The translations under genes and the position numbers were made by a program. A stretch of 64,000 nt of DNA from Alphaproteobacteria bacterium 46_93_T64 (GTDB lineage: Bacteria > Pseudomonadota > Alphaproteobacteria > Sneathiellales > Sneathiellaceae). The stretch is taken from positions 186,001 to 250,000 of the forward strand of contig MAAN01000022.1 of the NCBI GenBank assembly GCA_002163135.1, given 5' to 3'. The notes under the pieces were generated by a model that did not search any database, was not told where the DNA came from, and was given only the letters and a program-made list of their open reading frames with translations. Position 1 is the first letter of the stretch; each line of letters starts with the position of its first letter. Positions 8,481 through 57,260 of the stretch are shown one piece after another.

Positions 8481-10567
8481 CGTCCTTCACGCCACCAGAG
8501 AATACACATGCTGCCAATAAGCAGAAACACAACAAGAAGCGGTGGAATAAGCTGTGTTTTTGTGTAGCCACTAATACTGTATTGTTTGTTCGCTCTAAGG
8601 CCCCACCAATAATTGGTGGATTGCTGAGCCGTTGGAGAAGTTCGTTTGAATGATGGGAGAGCCCCATCCGCGATCCAATGGATCCCGCCGCCACTCTGTA
8701 TTGCAATTGGCTGCATATATTTATCAGTTGCGCGGACGTTTCGTTCTTCAAGCGGATTGGGAGAACCTACGGCGACAAATGCATCTATTCCCGTCGAACT
8801 TAACTTGTAGAGACCATTTACTGAAATGGGAACCGAACCGATTTGAATGCCTGATTTATCTAGCTGCAATTTTAGTTCAATATTTTTCCCGTCAGGATAT
8901 CTGATCATAACTAGATCGTTTAAGTCGCTGAGAGAGCGGCGTGTGATTTCAAGTTTTCCACCAACCCGCTTCGCAGTCAGCTGCTCTTCTTCCAGTTCAG
9001 GTTCTTTCATGAGCCAATGGGCAATACGGCGGAATAATTCTGCTTGTGGGCCCCCGCCATCGAAGCCACGGCCCCAAAGCCATGCATGATCTGACATAAG
9101 CTGAGCAACGCGGCCTTCCCCCTGACGGTTTAGAATAAGTAGCGGCCGATCAGATGAGCCTGTCATTAACACTGTACCAGCTTTGATATTGGTATCGATT
9201 AATCTGAACCAGCGTCCCCATTGATCAGCGCGACCGTTGGCAGATAAGGAGGCTGTTACTGGATGTTTGAGGCCAATTTCGTTCAGGCGAGGAACATAGG
9301 GTTGCTCGAAAACGCTGCCGGTAGGGCGTCCGGGGAGAATGCTTGCCAAGGATGTTCCGTAGAGGCTGAGGGGGCTGGCAAATGACGGACCAGCGGCTTC
9401 CAATAAAGCTCCGCCATTTTCAACATATGAGACAATATTGTTTAAATAGCGCGGAGACAAGACACCCCGTTTTCGGTACCTGTCGAATACAATTAGGTCA
9501 AACTCGTTCAGTTTTTGTTCAAACAACTCGATAATTGGAAAGGGGATCAAAGACAGTTCTTTCAACGGAGTCCCGTCTTGTTTTTCTGGAGGACGCAAGA
9601 TTGTGAAATGTATCAAATCGACCGAGGGGTCAGATTTCAATATATTGCGCCATCCTCTCTCTCCTATATGGGGTTCTCCGGAAATTAATAGGACTTTCAA
9701 TCGATCCCTTATGCCATTTATGGAAACTACCGCAGTATTGTTCTTCTCGCTGATTTCACCGGATAAAGGTTCGACGCTCAAAATGACATGGTTGGCACCA
9801 CCATGGGGTACTATCAATCCCAGATCCTCAGAACGGCCGGTTAAGGTTGCAACGCGTTTAATAACTTCCCCATCCAATCGTGCTGTGAGAACAACGGTTT
9901 TTGGTTTTATTTCTGGTCCAAAATCTTCAACTTTGTATTTGATTTGAACAGATTTCCCGATAATTCCATAAGAAGGTGCAATATCGACGGTGATAACTCT
10001 GTCAACTTCGCCTTTTGTACCGGTTATAACGGTGTGGATGGGACCGCTTCCTTTAACCACTTTCGCGGCCATTTCTACAGCATCATGCACTTGGCCATCT
10101 GTGACTATAACAGTGGCGGCGAGGCGTTCTTTAGGAAGTGTCTCCAATGCGATTTCTCTTGCCTTGAAAAGGTGAGTGCCACCAGCGCTCTCAGACAGGG
10201 CCGTGGAATTGGATGTCACTGATATAACTTGGACCTCCACATCTTTAAGTTTTTGTAATTCTTGCAACAGAGTTTTCTTTGCTTGTTTTGCTTGTTCTGC
10301 TCTGGCCCCAATCGACTGGCTAGTTGTTTCGTCGATAACCAACAACACGATGTCTTTTAAGAAAGTTCGATTTTCAGAAATTATAGCGGGGTTCAGAAGG
10401 AGTAAAAACAAAGTTGCCAACAAGAGGAACCGAAAGATCACCGCTTTAGTGTTTTGCCAGTATGCGTAGCCTAATAAAATCAAGGCTACACATGCCATAA
10501 CGCCAAGCCAAAATATTGGTAACGTTGGCTCTATCGAGAGTGTGGATACGAAGTCCAAGTCACTCAT
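8477..10567 (-). CDS. Membrane protein with degenerate VWA and glutamine-amidotransferase-like domain
   Basis: This 696-residue protein is the last gene of the MoxR-DUF58-DUF4159 cluster. It has two N-terminal membrane helices (about 18-38 and 43-63) and a von Willebrand-like region beginning VLLVIDETTSQS. The region has lost a clean DxSxS metal site. A class I glutamine-amidotransferase-like fold (around residues 290-480, VENGGALLEAAGPSF) and a C-terminal helix before WWREGR follow. It overlaps the upstream gene by 4 bases. A role in envelope or periplasmic complex maturation is inferred from the MoxR context; no catalytic triad is obvious. Confidence 0.8.
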   Translation of the reverse strand: MSDLDFVSTLSIEPTLPIFWLGVMACVALILLGYAYWQNTKAVIFRFLLLATLFLLLLNPAIISENRTFLKDIVLLVIDETTSQSIGARAEQAKQAKKTLLQELQKLKDVEVQVISVTSNSTALSESAGGTHLFKAREIALETLPKERLAATVIVTDGQVHDAVEMAAKVVKGSGPIHTVITGTKGEVDRVITVDIAPSYGIIGKSVQIKYKVEDFGPEIKPKTVVLTARLDGEVIKRVATLTGRSEDLGLIVPHGGANHVILSVEPLSGEISEKNNTAVVSINGIRDRLKVLLISGEPHIGERGWRNILKSDPSVDLIHFTILRPPEKQDGTPLKELSLIPFPIIELFEQKLNEFDLIVFDRYRKRGVLSPRYLNNIVSYVENGGALLEAAGPSFASPLSLYGTSLASILPGRPTGSVFEQPYVPRLNEIGLKHPVTASLSANGRADQWGRWFRLIDTNIKAGTVLMTGSSDRPLLILNRQGEGRVAQLMSDHAWLWGRGFDGGGPQAELFRRIAHWLMKEPELEEEQLTAKRVGGKLEITRRSLSDLNDLVMIRYPDGKNIELKLQLDKSGIQIGSVPISVNGLYKLSSTGIDAFVAVGSPNPLEERNVRATDKYMQPIAIQSGGGIHWIADGALPSFKRTSPTAQQSTNYWWGLRANKQYSISGYTKTQLIPPLLVVFLLIGSMCILWWREGR

Positions 10568-15898: not shown

Positions 15899-16529
15899 TA
15901 AACAAGTCTTAAGAGACGTATTCCAGTCGTTTCTGGAACCTTCACCGAGTGGCTTCTATGAGCATTTGGGGAAAGAAGGGGGCTTTAAAGGTGATCATGA
16001 TCTGAATCCAGCGAGCCACCCGTGTGAAGTTAAAACACTTAAACCTGCCGCTGTATTAGTACCAATCGTTGTACGTGATGATGAGCCCTCTGTCATTTTG
16101 ACAAAGCGAGCAGCACATATGAATAAACATGCCGGCCAAGTTAGCTTTCCAGGTGGCCGTGCGGAAAAAGAAGACGGGACCGCGGTACAAACTGCGCTTC
16201 GGGAAAGTCAGGAGGAGATCGGTTTGGATCCAACGCTGGTTGAAGTGGTCGGTACTCTTAGCACCTATGTAACGGTCACAGAATATTCAGTGACGCCAGT
16301 GGTCGGGTTGGTTGATCCCAATTTTGAATTAAAAGCGGAAGAAAGTGAAGTTGCCGAGATATTTGAAGTCCCGTTGCGGTTTTTACTGGATCAACGCAAC
16401 CATCAGAAGCATAGTGGGTTTCACAATGGGATAGAACGCTTTTGGTATGCAATGCCCTATAATGACTATTATATTTGGGGCGCAACCGCAGGAATGATCA
16501 AAGACCTTTCAGAAAGGGCAAATCGATAA
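15879..16529 (+). CDS. NUDIX hydrolase, CoA pyrophosphatase type
   Basis: This 216-residue NUDIX enzyme has an intact box GX5EX7REUXEEXGU in GGRAEKEDGT...RESQEEIGLD (about residues 91-113). The preceding LTKRAAHMNKHAGQVSFPGG is the UPF0035/CoA-pyrophosphatase signature. It should cleave CoA or a CoA derivative to 4'-phosphopantetheine and 3',5'-ADP. It overlaps DUF1285 by 20 bases and DUF6111 by one base (TAATG), so translation is coupled. Confidence 0.9.
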   Translation: MKFLANNKQVLRDVFQSFLEPSPSGFYEHLGKEGGFKGDHDLNPASHPCEVKTLKPAAVLVPIVVRDDEPSVILTKRAAHMNKHAGQVSFPGGRAEKEDGTAVQTALRESQEEIGLDPTLVEVVGTLSTYVTVTEYSVTPVVGLVDPNFELKAEESEVAEIFEVPLRFLLDQRNHQKHSGFHNGIERFWYAMPYNDYYIWGATAGMIKDLSERANR

Positions 16530-16804
16530 TGGTTCGAGGAATACTCTTTCATATAATACCATTGCTTGTTCCCTTCATCGTTTACGCGATCTATTTGTAT
16601 TATCTGAAAAAGGCGGGCGGCGAGAAAACGTGGCAGGGGAAATCTGTTGCAGTCTTGACCCTTATCGGACTGTTTTTTATGGCAATAAGTTTTATCGTCT
16701 TGTGGGTTTTCCAAGAACGCTCCGCCGATGGCGTTTATATTCCGCAGCACATGGAAAACGGTAAACTTATAGATTCGCAAGTCATCCCCAGAAAGCAGAA
16801 CTAA
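16529..16804 (+). CDS. DUF6111 small membrane protein
   Basis: A 91-residue protein with two membrane helices (ILFHIIPLLVPFIVYAIYLY and VAVLTLIGLFFMAISFIVLW) and a short basic/acidic tail ending VIPRKQN. The start at 16529 is chosen because its ATG shares an A with the TAA stop of the NUDIX gene; a longer reading from 16475 would lie wholly inside that gene. It matches the DUF6111 family by position and pattern. The function is unknown. Confidence 0.85.
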   Translation: MVRGILFHIIPLLVPFIVYAIYLYYLKKAGGEKTWQGKSVAVLTLIGLFFMAISFIVLWVFQERSADGVYIPQHMENGKLIDSQVIPRKQN

Positions 16805-16811
16805 ATTATTC

Positions 16812-18035
16812 ATGAGCCAGATGGTCAAGCTCCATGATCTGAAGAAAACTCCGCCACCTTGGATAACGTATCCCGAAACGAAGAAGGTTCTAGAAACTCT
16901 TAGGATGAGTGGCGGCGAAGGCCGGTTTGTTGGGGGATGTGTGCGGGATGCGCTTTTGGGGCACATCAGCGATGACATAGATATTTGTACAGATCTGAAG
17001 CCAGATGCAGTTATGACGGCCTTTGGAAACGCGGGTGTTCGAGTTATCCCAACCGGTTTGAAGCATGGCACAGTTACGGCGATCCTTGGGACACACAAAT
17101 ACGAAATTACGACCTTACGCGTAGACGTGTCTACTGACGGCCGACATGCCGAAGTTGAATTCACTGCGAACTGGCAAGAAGACGCAGCGCGGCGCGATTT
17201 TACCATCAATGCCCTCTATCTAACTGAGGAGGGGGAGCTTCTAGATTACTTCGATGGCATAAATGATTTGCAAGCCGGTCAGTTGCGTTTCATTGGAGAT
17301 GCAGATGCGCGCATCGAAGAAGATCGCTTGCGGGTTCTACGATATTTCCGTTTTTTTTCGAGGTTCCATCGGGGGACACCAGATCCGGATGCCATTGCGG
17401 CTTGCGAAAATGCTGTTGGGAAATTAGGGCAATTATCGTCGGAGCGTGTGACGCGTGAGTTTATGCTCCTTTTGGAACAGAGAAATTCTACCGATGCCTT
17501 GCGTCTAATGGAGCGTTCTGGCGTTCTTCAAGCTGTTCTTCCAGGCAATGCTTCGTTGAAGCTCTACGGAAAACTGCTCGAACTACCAACTTCCAGTGAT
17601 GCATTGCAACGCTTGTGCGTTCTGTATAACGGGAATTTAGAATGGGCTAAGAATATCGCCACTTACCTTCGTCTATCTACAAGGTTTGAAGCACGCCTAG
17701 TTTTAATGTGTGCTGAAGATTTATCCTTATTGCTTTCTACGACCGAACAAAAGGCTGAGCTGTATAAGTTGGGGTGTGAAGTTTTTAAGGACAGAGTATT
17801 ACTCGCGTGGGGGCGGGGCGGGCATACTGCGATTTGTCAGAGCTATCTGGAACTTGCGGAAAATTGGCAAATCCCAAAATTACCCGTTAGCGGCAAGGAT
17901 TTGTTGGCTACTGGAATGAAGCCGGGACCGGTGGTTGGGGAAAATCTTAAGCGACTGGAAAAAGACTGGATCGCGAGTGACTTTCTGCTTTCCAAAGATC
18001 AACTGCTAGTTCGCATTGGATCCAGTAACTCCTAA
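16812..18035 (+). CDS. cca: CCA tRNA nucleotidyltransferase (class II)
   Basis: This enzyme adds or repairs the 3' CCA end of tRNAs. The 407-residue protein has the class II nucleotidyltransferase core: the GG motif GGCVRDALLG, the catalytic DIDICTD, and motif B/C RRDFTINALYL then FIGDADARIEEDRLRVLRYF, which binds and chooses the incoming nucleotide. The C-terminal helical part is of normal length. It is the last gene of the DUF1285 operon and overlaps a convergent gene by 30 bases. Confidence 0.95.
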   Translation: MSQMVKLHDLKKTPPPWITYPETKKVLETLRMSGGEGRFVGGCVRDALLGHISDDIDICTDLKPDAVMTAFGNAGVRVIPTGLKHGTVTAILGTHKYEITTLRVDVSTDGRHAEVEFTANWQEDAARRDFTINALYLTEEGELLDYFDGINDLQAGQLRFIGDADARIEEDRLRVLRYFRFFSRFHRGTPDPDAIAACENAVGKLGQLSSERVTREFMLLLEQRNSTDALRLMERSGVLQAVLPGNASLKLYGKLLELPTSSDALQRLCVLYNGNLEWAKNIATYLRLSTRFEARLVLMCAEDLSLLLSTTEQKAELYKLGCEVFKDRVLLAWGRGGHTAICQSYLELAENWQIPKLPVSGKDLLATGMKPGPVVGENLKRLEKDWIASDFLLSKDQLLVRIGSSNS

Positions 18036-55795: not shown

Positions 55796-56039
55796 TTTTC
55801 ACTCTCATTATTGATGTATGAGTTTCCAAAAATTCTAAGCTGTCTTTTAACACATTCACCGTGAGAGGACATTTGTTTTTCTGAAATTGAGCATTAGAGT
55901 TTCTCCAATTCTCTGGAATGATTGGTTGGCAAAAGGATTTAAAGATGAAATAGTATCGACAGAATGTGATTGGGGTCACATTTATTTGGTATGATTATGT
56001 GTCGGTGATCACAATTATTATCACCTTTGGGAGTCGAGT
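55796..56039. other. Divergent regulatory region with three palindromes
   Basis: The region holds CTCAT-N9-ATGAG over the acyl-CoA dehydrogenase leader (55804-55822). A perfect CRP-type palindrome TGTGA-N6-TCACA lies at 55965-55980, and GGTGAT-N10-ATCACC is at 56004-56025 beside the 2OG oxygenase start. The first is a candidate GntR operator by position. Confidence 0.45.
55965..55980. promoter_or_regulatory. CRP-like site
   Basis: TGTGATTGGGGTCACA matches the TGTGA-N6-TCACA consensus of the Crp/Fnr superfamily exactly. It lies about 75 bases upstream of the 2OG oxygenase start. A role in controlling either divergent gene is an inference. Confidence 0.5.
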
Positions 56040-56642
56040 ATGATAGTGGTTCCGTCTGCGCCAATGCGGAATAATAAAACAGCTTCGGTTTACGCGAACA
56101 CTGTTTTTTCAGAAGACGAATGTGATCGGATTCTGGCGACGCTGGAAGAAAATGAGTGGGAAGAGGCTATGGTGGGAGGCGCTGTTGAAAAGGGCGTTTT
56201 CACAGTCGAAAAAGAACACCGGAGCAATTATCAGCAATCGATAACTGTGGACGAAGTTGGGTATCCGTTAAATCGGATTGCTCAGGAAATTAGTATCGCA
56301 AATTCCGCATTATGGAGATTTGATCTGGGCGGATTTGCTGATGACGATATGCCGTGGGTAATGAATTATTGCCGTCAAGGAGATCACAATAACTGGCATG
56401 TAGATCTGGGGCAGGCTGCAAATGCATCTCGGAAGTTAGGTTTTTCTCTGCAGCTTACTGAAGGTGATGAGTATGCTGGCGGTGATCTTGGGTTTCATAG
56501 AGTTGAAAAGGATCGCAAGGAGCTAACAGGGAAAGGCACGCTGATCGTTTTTCCATCTTTCTGGTTACATCGGGTCGCACCAATGACAAAAGGTGCAAGA
56601 AAAGTTGTTGTTGGCTGGATACATGGCCCAAGTTTCAGGTAA
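56040..56642 (+). CDS. 2OG-Fe(II) oxygenase, PKHD-type hydroxylase
   Basis: A 200-residue dioxygenase with a full iron site: H120 and D122 in NNWHVDLGQ, H177 in FWLHRVAPMT, and R187 for 2-oxoglutarate. It uses 2OG and oxygen to hydroxylate an unknown substrate, possibly a protein or small molecule. GGGAG lies 6 bases before the ATG. It is followed by a close homologue 12 bases away; the pair arose by tandem duplication. Confidence 0.9.
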   Translation: MIVVPSAPMRNNKTASVYANTVFSEDECDRILATLEENEWEEAMVGGAVEKGVFTVEKEHRSNYQQSITVDEVGYPLNRIAQEISIANSALWRFDLGGFADDDMPWVMNYCRQGDHNNWHVDLGQAANASRKLGFSLQLTEGDEYAGGDLGFHRVEKDRKELTGKGTLIVFPSFWLHRVAPMTKGARKVVVGWIHGPSFR

Positions 56643-56654
56643 TAGGACGCAAAA

Positions 56655-57260
56655 ATGAACAAGATATCCTTGCTACCGCTTAGAAATGCAAATGTGTCTC
56701 TTTCCATGCATTGGCCTGTTTTCTCTCCCCAGGAATGTGCGCAAATTTCGGCGCAAGCGGACGGTTCTCGGTGGCAAAGTAAGCTACCGGTTGGGCCAGG
56801 AAATGTTTCGGTGTTTCCAGATGCCACTGAAGCAAAACACATCGAGTTTCAAAAGTTGCCATTAGGTAAAAACGCTTATCCTTTGGACCAAATCAACTTT
56901 GGTACAAGCCAAGTGAACTCTGACGGATGGCGGTTTGAGTTAACGGGTATTCCCGCAGATGATATGCCGTGGCTTGCTAGGCATAAAAAAGGAGAGAGCA
57001 AAGGTATTGAGTGGCAAGTTGATCTTGCTGAATCCTTCACATCGTCACGGAAGCTTTGCTTCATTGTACAACTGTCTGATTCCAATAGTTATGAGGGTGG
57101 AGATGTCATCCTGCACAACACGCCAGCACAAATAGAGGGGTACCGTGCACAAGGCTCGATTATTGTTTTCCCATCTTATTGGTTACATAAAGTCACACCA
57201 GTAACTAAAGGGACACGTCAATCGATTGTTGGCTGGATGCATGGGCATAGTTTCCGCTAA
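56655..57260 (+). CDS. 2OG-Fe(II) oxygenase homologue lacking an iron ligand
   Basis: A 201-residue paralogue of the upstream oxygenase, colinear along its length (ADDMPW, FIVQL, FPSYWLHKVTPVTKGTR shared in order). The first iron ligand is replaced: WQVDL with Q121 in place of His, from a single CAT/CAA change. D123, H178 and R188 remain. It is likely inactive or uses another metal mode, and may be a partner or regulator of the first protein. Confidence 0.85.
   Translation: MNKISLLPLRNANVSLSMHWPVFSPQECAQISAQADGSRWQSKLPVGPGNVSVFPDATEAKHIEFQKLPLGKNAYPLDQINFGTSQVNSDGWRFELTGIPADDMPWLARHKKGESKGIEWQVDLAESFTSSRKLCFIVQLSDSNSYEGGDVILHNTPAQIEGYRAQGSIIVFPSYWLHKVTPVTKGTRQSIVGWMHGHSFR

Follow-up and report, generated by a model that had tools for sequence, protein, structure and literature searches.

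Bacterial pairs made up of an active 2-oxoglutarate (2OG) oxygenase and an inactive homolog have rarely been documented. As described in a paper that cites the original work, CorB-CorD of RiPP biosynthesis is a Fe/alpha-ketoglutarate system in which an active enzyme and an inactive homolog form a heterodimer (PMC13060819, citing Xia et al. 2025, doi 10.1021/jacs.5c07332). In OGFOD1, Tpa1p and Ofd1 a catalytic 2OG double-stranded beta-helix domain is packed on a second domain that lacks the metal site (PMC4396695). In another enzyme family, trypanosome AdoMetDC heterodimerizes with a dead paralog, prozyme, by which it is activated allosterically (PMC5201418). The PKHD-type hydroxylases PiuC, YbiX and CciO (PDB 9qn0-9qn4, 9ghl and 3dkq; PMC12004947) are single-copy, active enzymes, often encoded beside a TonB receptor.

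The locus described here probably adds a further active/inactive pair, from among the PKHD-like 2OG oxygenases. It lies within the window, which is the whole stretch of 64,000 nucleotides that was analyzed, in a genome of 4.0 Mb (41 contigs, completeness 99.9%). The same locus is present in named relatives, in Sneathiella and Sneathiellales records. Sneathiella is a genus of marine bacteria in the Alphaproteobacteria. We found no paper naming the Sneathiella pair, and none joining pseudoenzyme, 2-oxoglutarate, heterodimer and dioxygenase, in a search that covered few subscription papers. The genes, here called A and B, and their key positions are as follows.

55965 to 55980, + strand: CRP-type palindrome TGTGATTGGGGTCACA, 75 bases 5' of the start of A
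56040 to 56642, + strand: gene A, a 200 aa 2OG-Fe(II) oxygenase (PF13640) with intact HxD...H...R
56367 to 56369, + strand: codon of A Tyr110, 10 residues N-terminal of the first His; His, Gln or Arg in 11/11 B
56397 to 56399, + strand: codon CAT of A His120, the first iron ligand
56643 to 56654, + strand: gap of 12 bases from the stop of A to the start of B, which is in the same frame, with TAA TAG and three codons between
56655 to 57260, + strand: gene B, a 201 aa paralog of A with a degraded metal site (probable pseudo-oxygenase)
57015 to 57017, + strand: codon CAA of B Gln121, at the first-ligand position; Q6/E3/L1/H1 across the genus
57021 to 57023, + strand: codon of B Asp123, the second ligand; Ala in G021
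57186 to 57188, + strand: codon of B His178, the distal ligand; Tyr in G004 and Gln in G006
57216 to 57218, + strand: codon of B Arg188, the 2OG-binding position; Cys in G018

To the left of the pair is a divergent acyl-CoA dehydrogenase gene; to the right is a convergent gene for an enolase-superfamily epimerase, followed by a DUF1611 gene. A and B are 37% identical across 195 residues (E 6e-48), and both pass the 27 bit gathering cut-off of Pfam PF13640 (2OG-FeII_Oxy_3), with 45.4 bits for A and 40.4 bits for B. Together with the two open reading frames, this bears out the sequence-only reading of the locus as tandem 2OG oxygenases 12 bases apart. Among solved structures, PKHD-type hydroxylases (PiuC and Shewanella 3dkq) are nearest in sequence; in a profile alignment with PiuC, H120/D122, H177 and R187 of A fall on its HxD, its distal His and its Arg. 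An AlphaFold2 model of B (pLDDT 80.7, pTM 0.83) is a double-stranded beta-helix. Its best Foldseek matches are 3dkq and PiuC; VIA-align 2 gives 3dkq (Z 14.7), lysyl hydroxylase LH3, Pseudomonas P4H and PHD2, almost tied. The PiuC/YbiX/CciO group is thus nearest to A in sequence and among the nearest folds to B. Assignment to the PiuC/YbiX equivalog was rejected, the best scores against the NCBIfam PRK05467 models being 63.1 bits for A and 54.7 bits for B, far under the cut-off of 143.

The two proteins differ at the metal site. The four motif residues of A (H120, D122, H177 and R187) are invariant in all 10 readable A copies of the genus and in the nine single-copy homologs described below. 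At the sequence level A therefore has the HxD...H triad and 2OG Arg of an active 2OG-Fe(II) oxygenase; B does not. Alignment and codons confirm, for the B copy of the window, the earlier observation that H120 of A is replaced by Q121 and that the other three motif residues are unchanged, D123, H178 and R188 being aligned with D122, H177 and R187 of A. The same reading derived the Gln from the His by one base change. That holds for the present codons, CAT and CAA, but carries no information on their history: the paralogs split before the genus diversified, and the B stem is long.

Across the 11 B sequences the first ligand is replaced by Gln in six, Glu in three and Leu in one, and is His in G008 alone. 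The Asp, distal His or Arg has also gone from B in four species. Forty-three sites are invariant in A and the single-copy homologs taken together, and 13 of these vary in B. All four motif residues fall within the 13, for which P = 0.006 were the 13 placed at random. A further position was overlooked in the sequence-only reading. Tyr110, also among the 13, is kept in all readable A copies and single-copy homologs and is absent from every B; the B of the window has His there. Its spacing of ten from the first His is that of Tyr303 and His313 in human PHD2, where we take Tyr303 to be a residue of the 2OG pocket. G008, the closest relative of the window (78%), has His, Asp, His and Arg in B, without the invariant Tyr.

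Each protein was used as a query against 61 genomes, and a B profile was run over the whole order. Of the 25 Sneathiella genomes, 11 have both A and B and the rest have neither; B always comes directly after A. One further genus was sampled in the family and order, and it has neither gene. In nine pair-less genomes the epimerase gene is present and is followed by different genes, which by eye encode a crotonase and an M20-type peptidase, so that absence of the pair from these nine is real; the other five pair-less genomes lie beyond this neighbor-gene judgment. Sampling 385 genomes from the class, with follow-up in two families, yielded nine single-copy close homologs. They occur one per genome, all outside Sneathiella and all with HxD/H/R and Tyr intact. 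No further close relative was seen in a phylum-wide sample of 398 genomes; as both scans are samples, pairs elsewhere are possible. The sequence-only reading had raised the question of whether relatives keep the pair and the Gln. The pair is kept in 11/25 genomes; what is conserved in B is the loss of the metal site, not the Gln itself.

A and B each form a single clade with 100/100 support, and the split between them predates diversification of the genus. The sister pairs G000+G008, G016+G024 and G004+G013 are common to the A and B trees, two of the three having a bootstrap of only 83-85% in A. The A and B distances are correlated (Mantel r = 0.55, p = 0.001). The correlation fits a unit that is inherited together, and congruent trees and distances would be expected of any two linked genes. 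The distribution of His and non-His at the first ligand of B needs a minimum of two changes on the tree, the best reading being that His was lost once at the root of the B clade and came back in G008 by a single base (CAA to CAC). Alternatively, G008 may have retained the His while several other lineages lost it, as a loss may come more easily than a gain.

The reading frame of B is open in 11/11 genomes with a mean column identity of 77%, and a global codon model gives omega = 0.070 for B and 0.040 for A. B is not decaying, and is under strong purifying selection. These values, with the loss of the first ligand from 10/11 copies, contradict the idea that B is a decaying duplicate, or that its Gln is a strain-specific mutation or a sequencing error, and make it highly improbable. 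The idea draws on the His in one close relative, the finding by which the sequence-only reading would have recognized a strain-specific mutation. That His does exist in G008; it is set against the ten losses, the missing Tyr of the G008 protein and the count of two changes. The same His, together with the Asp, distal His and Arg kept by most B copies and the Glu in three of 11 that could ligate a metal, might indicate that B is still an enzyme, with Gln or Glu in a rebuilt metal site, or with some other chemistry. Yet Leu also occurs at the first position, G021, G004 and G006 have each lost another ligand, G018 has lost the 2OG Arg and all 11 copies have lost the Tyr, and no single alternative set of ligands is conserved. 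We regard retained catalysis as distinctly unlikely.

B might instead be non-catalytic and act apart from A, its pocket or surface binding a ligand or protein of the pathway as a sensor, chaperone or carrier, with the two genes merely co-regulated. Two proteins can be co-inherited and co-regulated without touching, and B has fixed residues of its own that differ from those of A (H19, W20, D78, Q79, G83, N155, R164 and H198). However, N155 and R164 are also present in the single-copy homologs and so are not innovations of B, and B is never kept without A, though the pathway could be the conserved unit. On balance independent action seems rather unlikely. We consider it probable that B is a non-catalytic paralog which has been retained to serve its active neighbor A as subunit or regulator. 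The Sneathiella B has the marks of a pseudoenzyme: it is homologous in fold and sequence, the conserved catalytic residues have gone and selection retains it. Pfam will nonetheless label every B '2OG-Fe(II) oxygenase', very probably wrongly. The proposal of a pseudoenzyme partner thus stands insofar as B is found clade-wide, under selection, lacking the standard metal site and always after A, and falls in its Gln-specific version.

The pair probably arose by tandem duplication of a PKHD/PiuC-like 2OG-Fe(II) oxygenase gene, after which the downstream copy would have lost catalysis and persisted as a helper of the upstream copy. A would bind Fe(II) and 2-oxoglutarate and oxidize a substrate. B would retain the double-stranded beta-helix while having given up iron and 2OG binding, and we infer that it is inactive. 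The spacing of the genes suggests that A and B come from the same transcript, probably under a dedicated CRP/FNR-type operator. B would most likely be found in a heteromer with A, and the presumed direction of its effect is upon A, which it might stabilize or switch, or help by presenting the substrate. The physical partnership is likewise our inference; the AlphaFold2 model of an A-B fusion, made by reading through the in-frame TAA TAG, has pLDDT 43.3 and pTM 0.35 and no bearing on the interface either way. A stricter form of the proposal, that the heteromer is obligate, with metal-free B needed for the activity or substrate choice of A, the ligand positions of B drifting (Q, E, L, H) and the rest selected, is offered tentatively, at somewhat less than even chances. 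Iron acquisition is a possible role for A by analogy with PiuC and CciO, but as a TonB receptor is absent among the immediate neighbors it is only a lead.

On the published description, the pair is like CorB-CorD in consisting of a bacterial Fe/2OG active enzyme and an inactive homolog, with a heteromer probable for A-B. CorB-CorD modifies RiPPs, whereas A and B neighbor the acyl-CoA dehydrogenase and enolase-superfamily epimerase genes, and we noticed no precursor peptide in this neighborhood. OGFOD1, Tpa1p and Ofd1 are each one fused eukaryotic polypeptide acting on ribosomal uS12, where A and B are two separate genes. AdoMetDC/prozyme belongs to a different enzyme family, and its heterodimer would have a counterpart in the one that we propose for Sneathiella. 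PiuC, YbiX and CciO share the HxD...H...R of A and are not paired. The 11 species provide a natural series, with different residues lost from the dead copy, and the intact single-copy homologs are a reference for the undoubled state. Together they allow a direct test of how a homomeric enzyme turns into an enzyme with a dead partner.

The palindrome upstream of A has the form TGTGA-N6-TCAC, which we take to be the consensus of CRP-class regulators. Every one of the 11 pair-bearing genomes has it 61-87 bases 5' of A, and in G006 and G010 it is doubled. The exact form TGTGAY-N4-RTCACA is present in 10/11, the G008 copy ending in T. By comparison, none of the nine single-copy homologs has it upstream. 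In the window it occurs once against 0.05 expected, and a pattern search of the source genome finds it at only two places. This sequence pattern suggests that the pair is regulated, as a dedicated target, by a CRP/FNR-family protein. The other genomic copy (G000:C31:26179-26194) is just 3' of a gene that reads as hemF, an oxygen-dependent coproporphyrinogen oxidase. A second inverted repeat, GGTGAT-N10-ATCACC, is located at 56004-56025, just 5' of the ribosome-binding site of A; it is not conserved in the upstream regions of the relatives.

In G010 and in the record of Sneathiella glossodoripedis JCM 23214, gene A has a frameshift close to the 3' end, next to a run of A, and B is intact. Either the active partner is truly damaged there or the assembly is in error. 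The single-copy homolog of G144 is followed by a gene for a TPR plus sulfotransferase-like protein (by eye), a possible hint of a substrate pathway.

Mobile origins were considered and rejected. There are 307 phage records for A and 189 for B, all less than 60% identical; those listed are about 30% identical, and the cellular single-copy homologs score higher. The best plasmid relative is 35% identical. Distant homologs of both A and B also occur in cyanophages and pelagiphages, and Stenotrophomonas phage vB_SmaS-DLP_6 has two 2OG-oxygenase genes about 7 kb apart (8911-9555 and 16352-16858). We likewise rejected the notion that any tandem array of these enzymes degenerates. G239 and G403, of one alphaproteobacterial genus, each have three tandem related 2OG oxygenases, and by eye HxD/H/R is kept in all copies.
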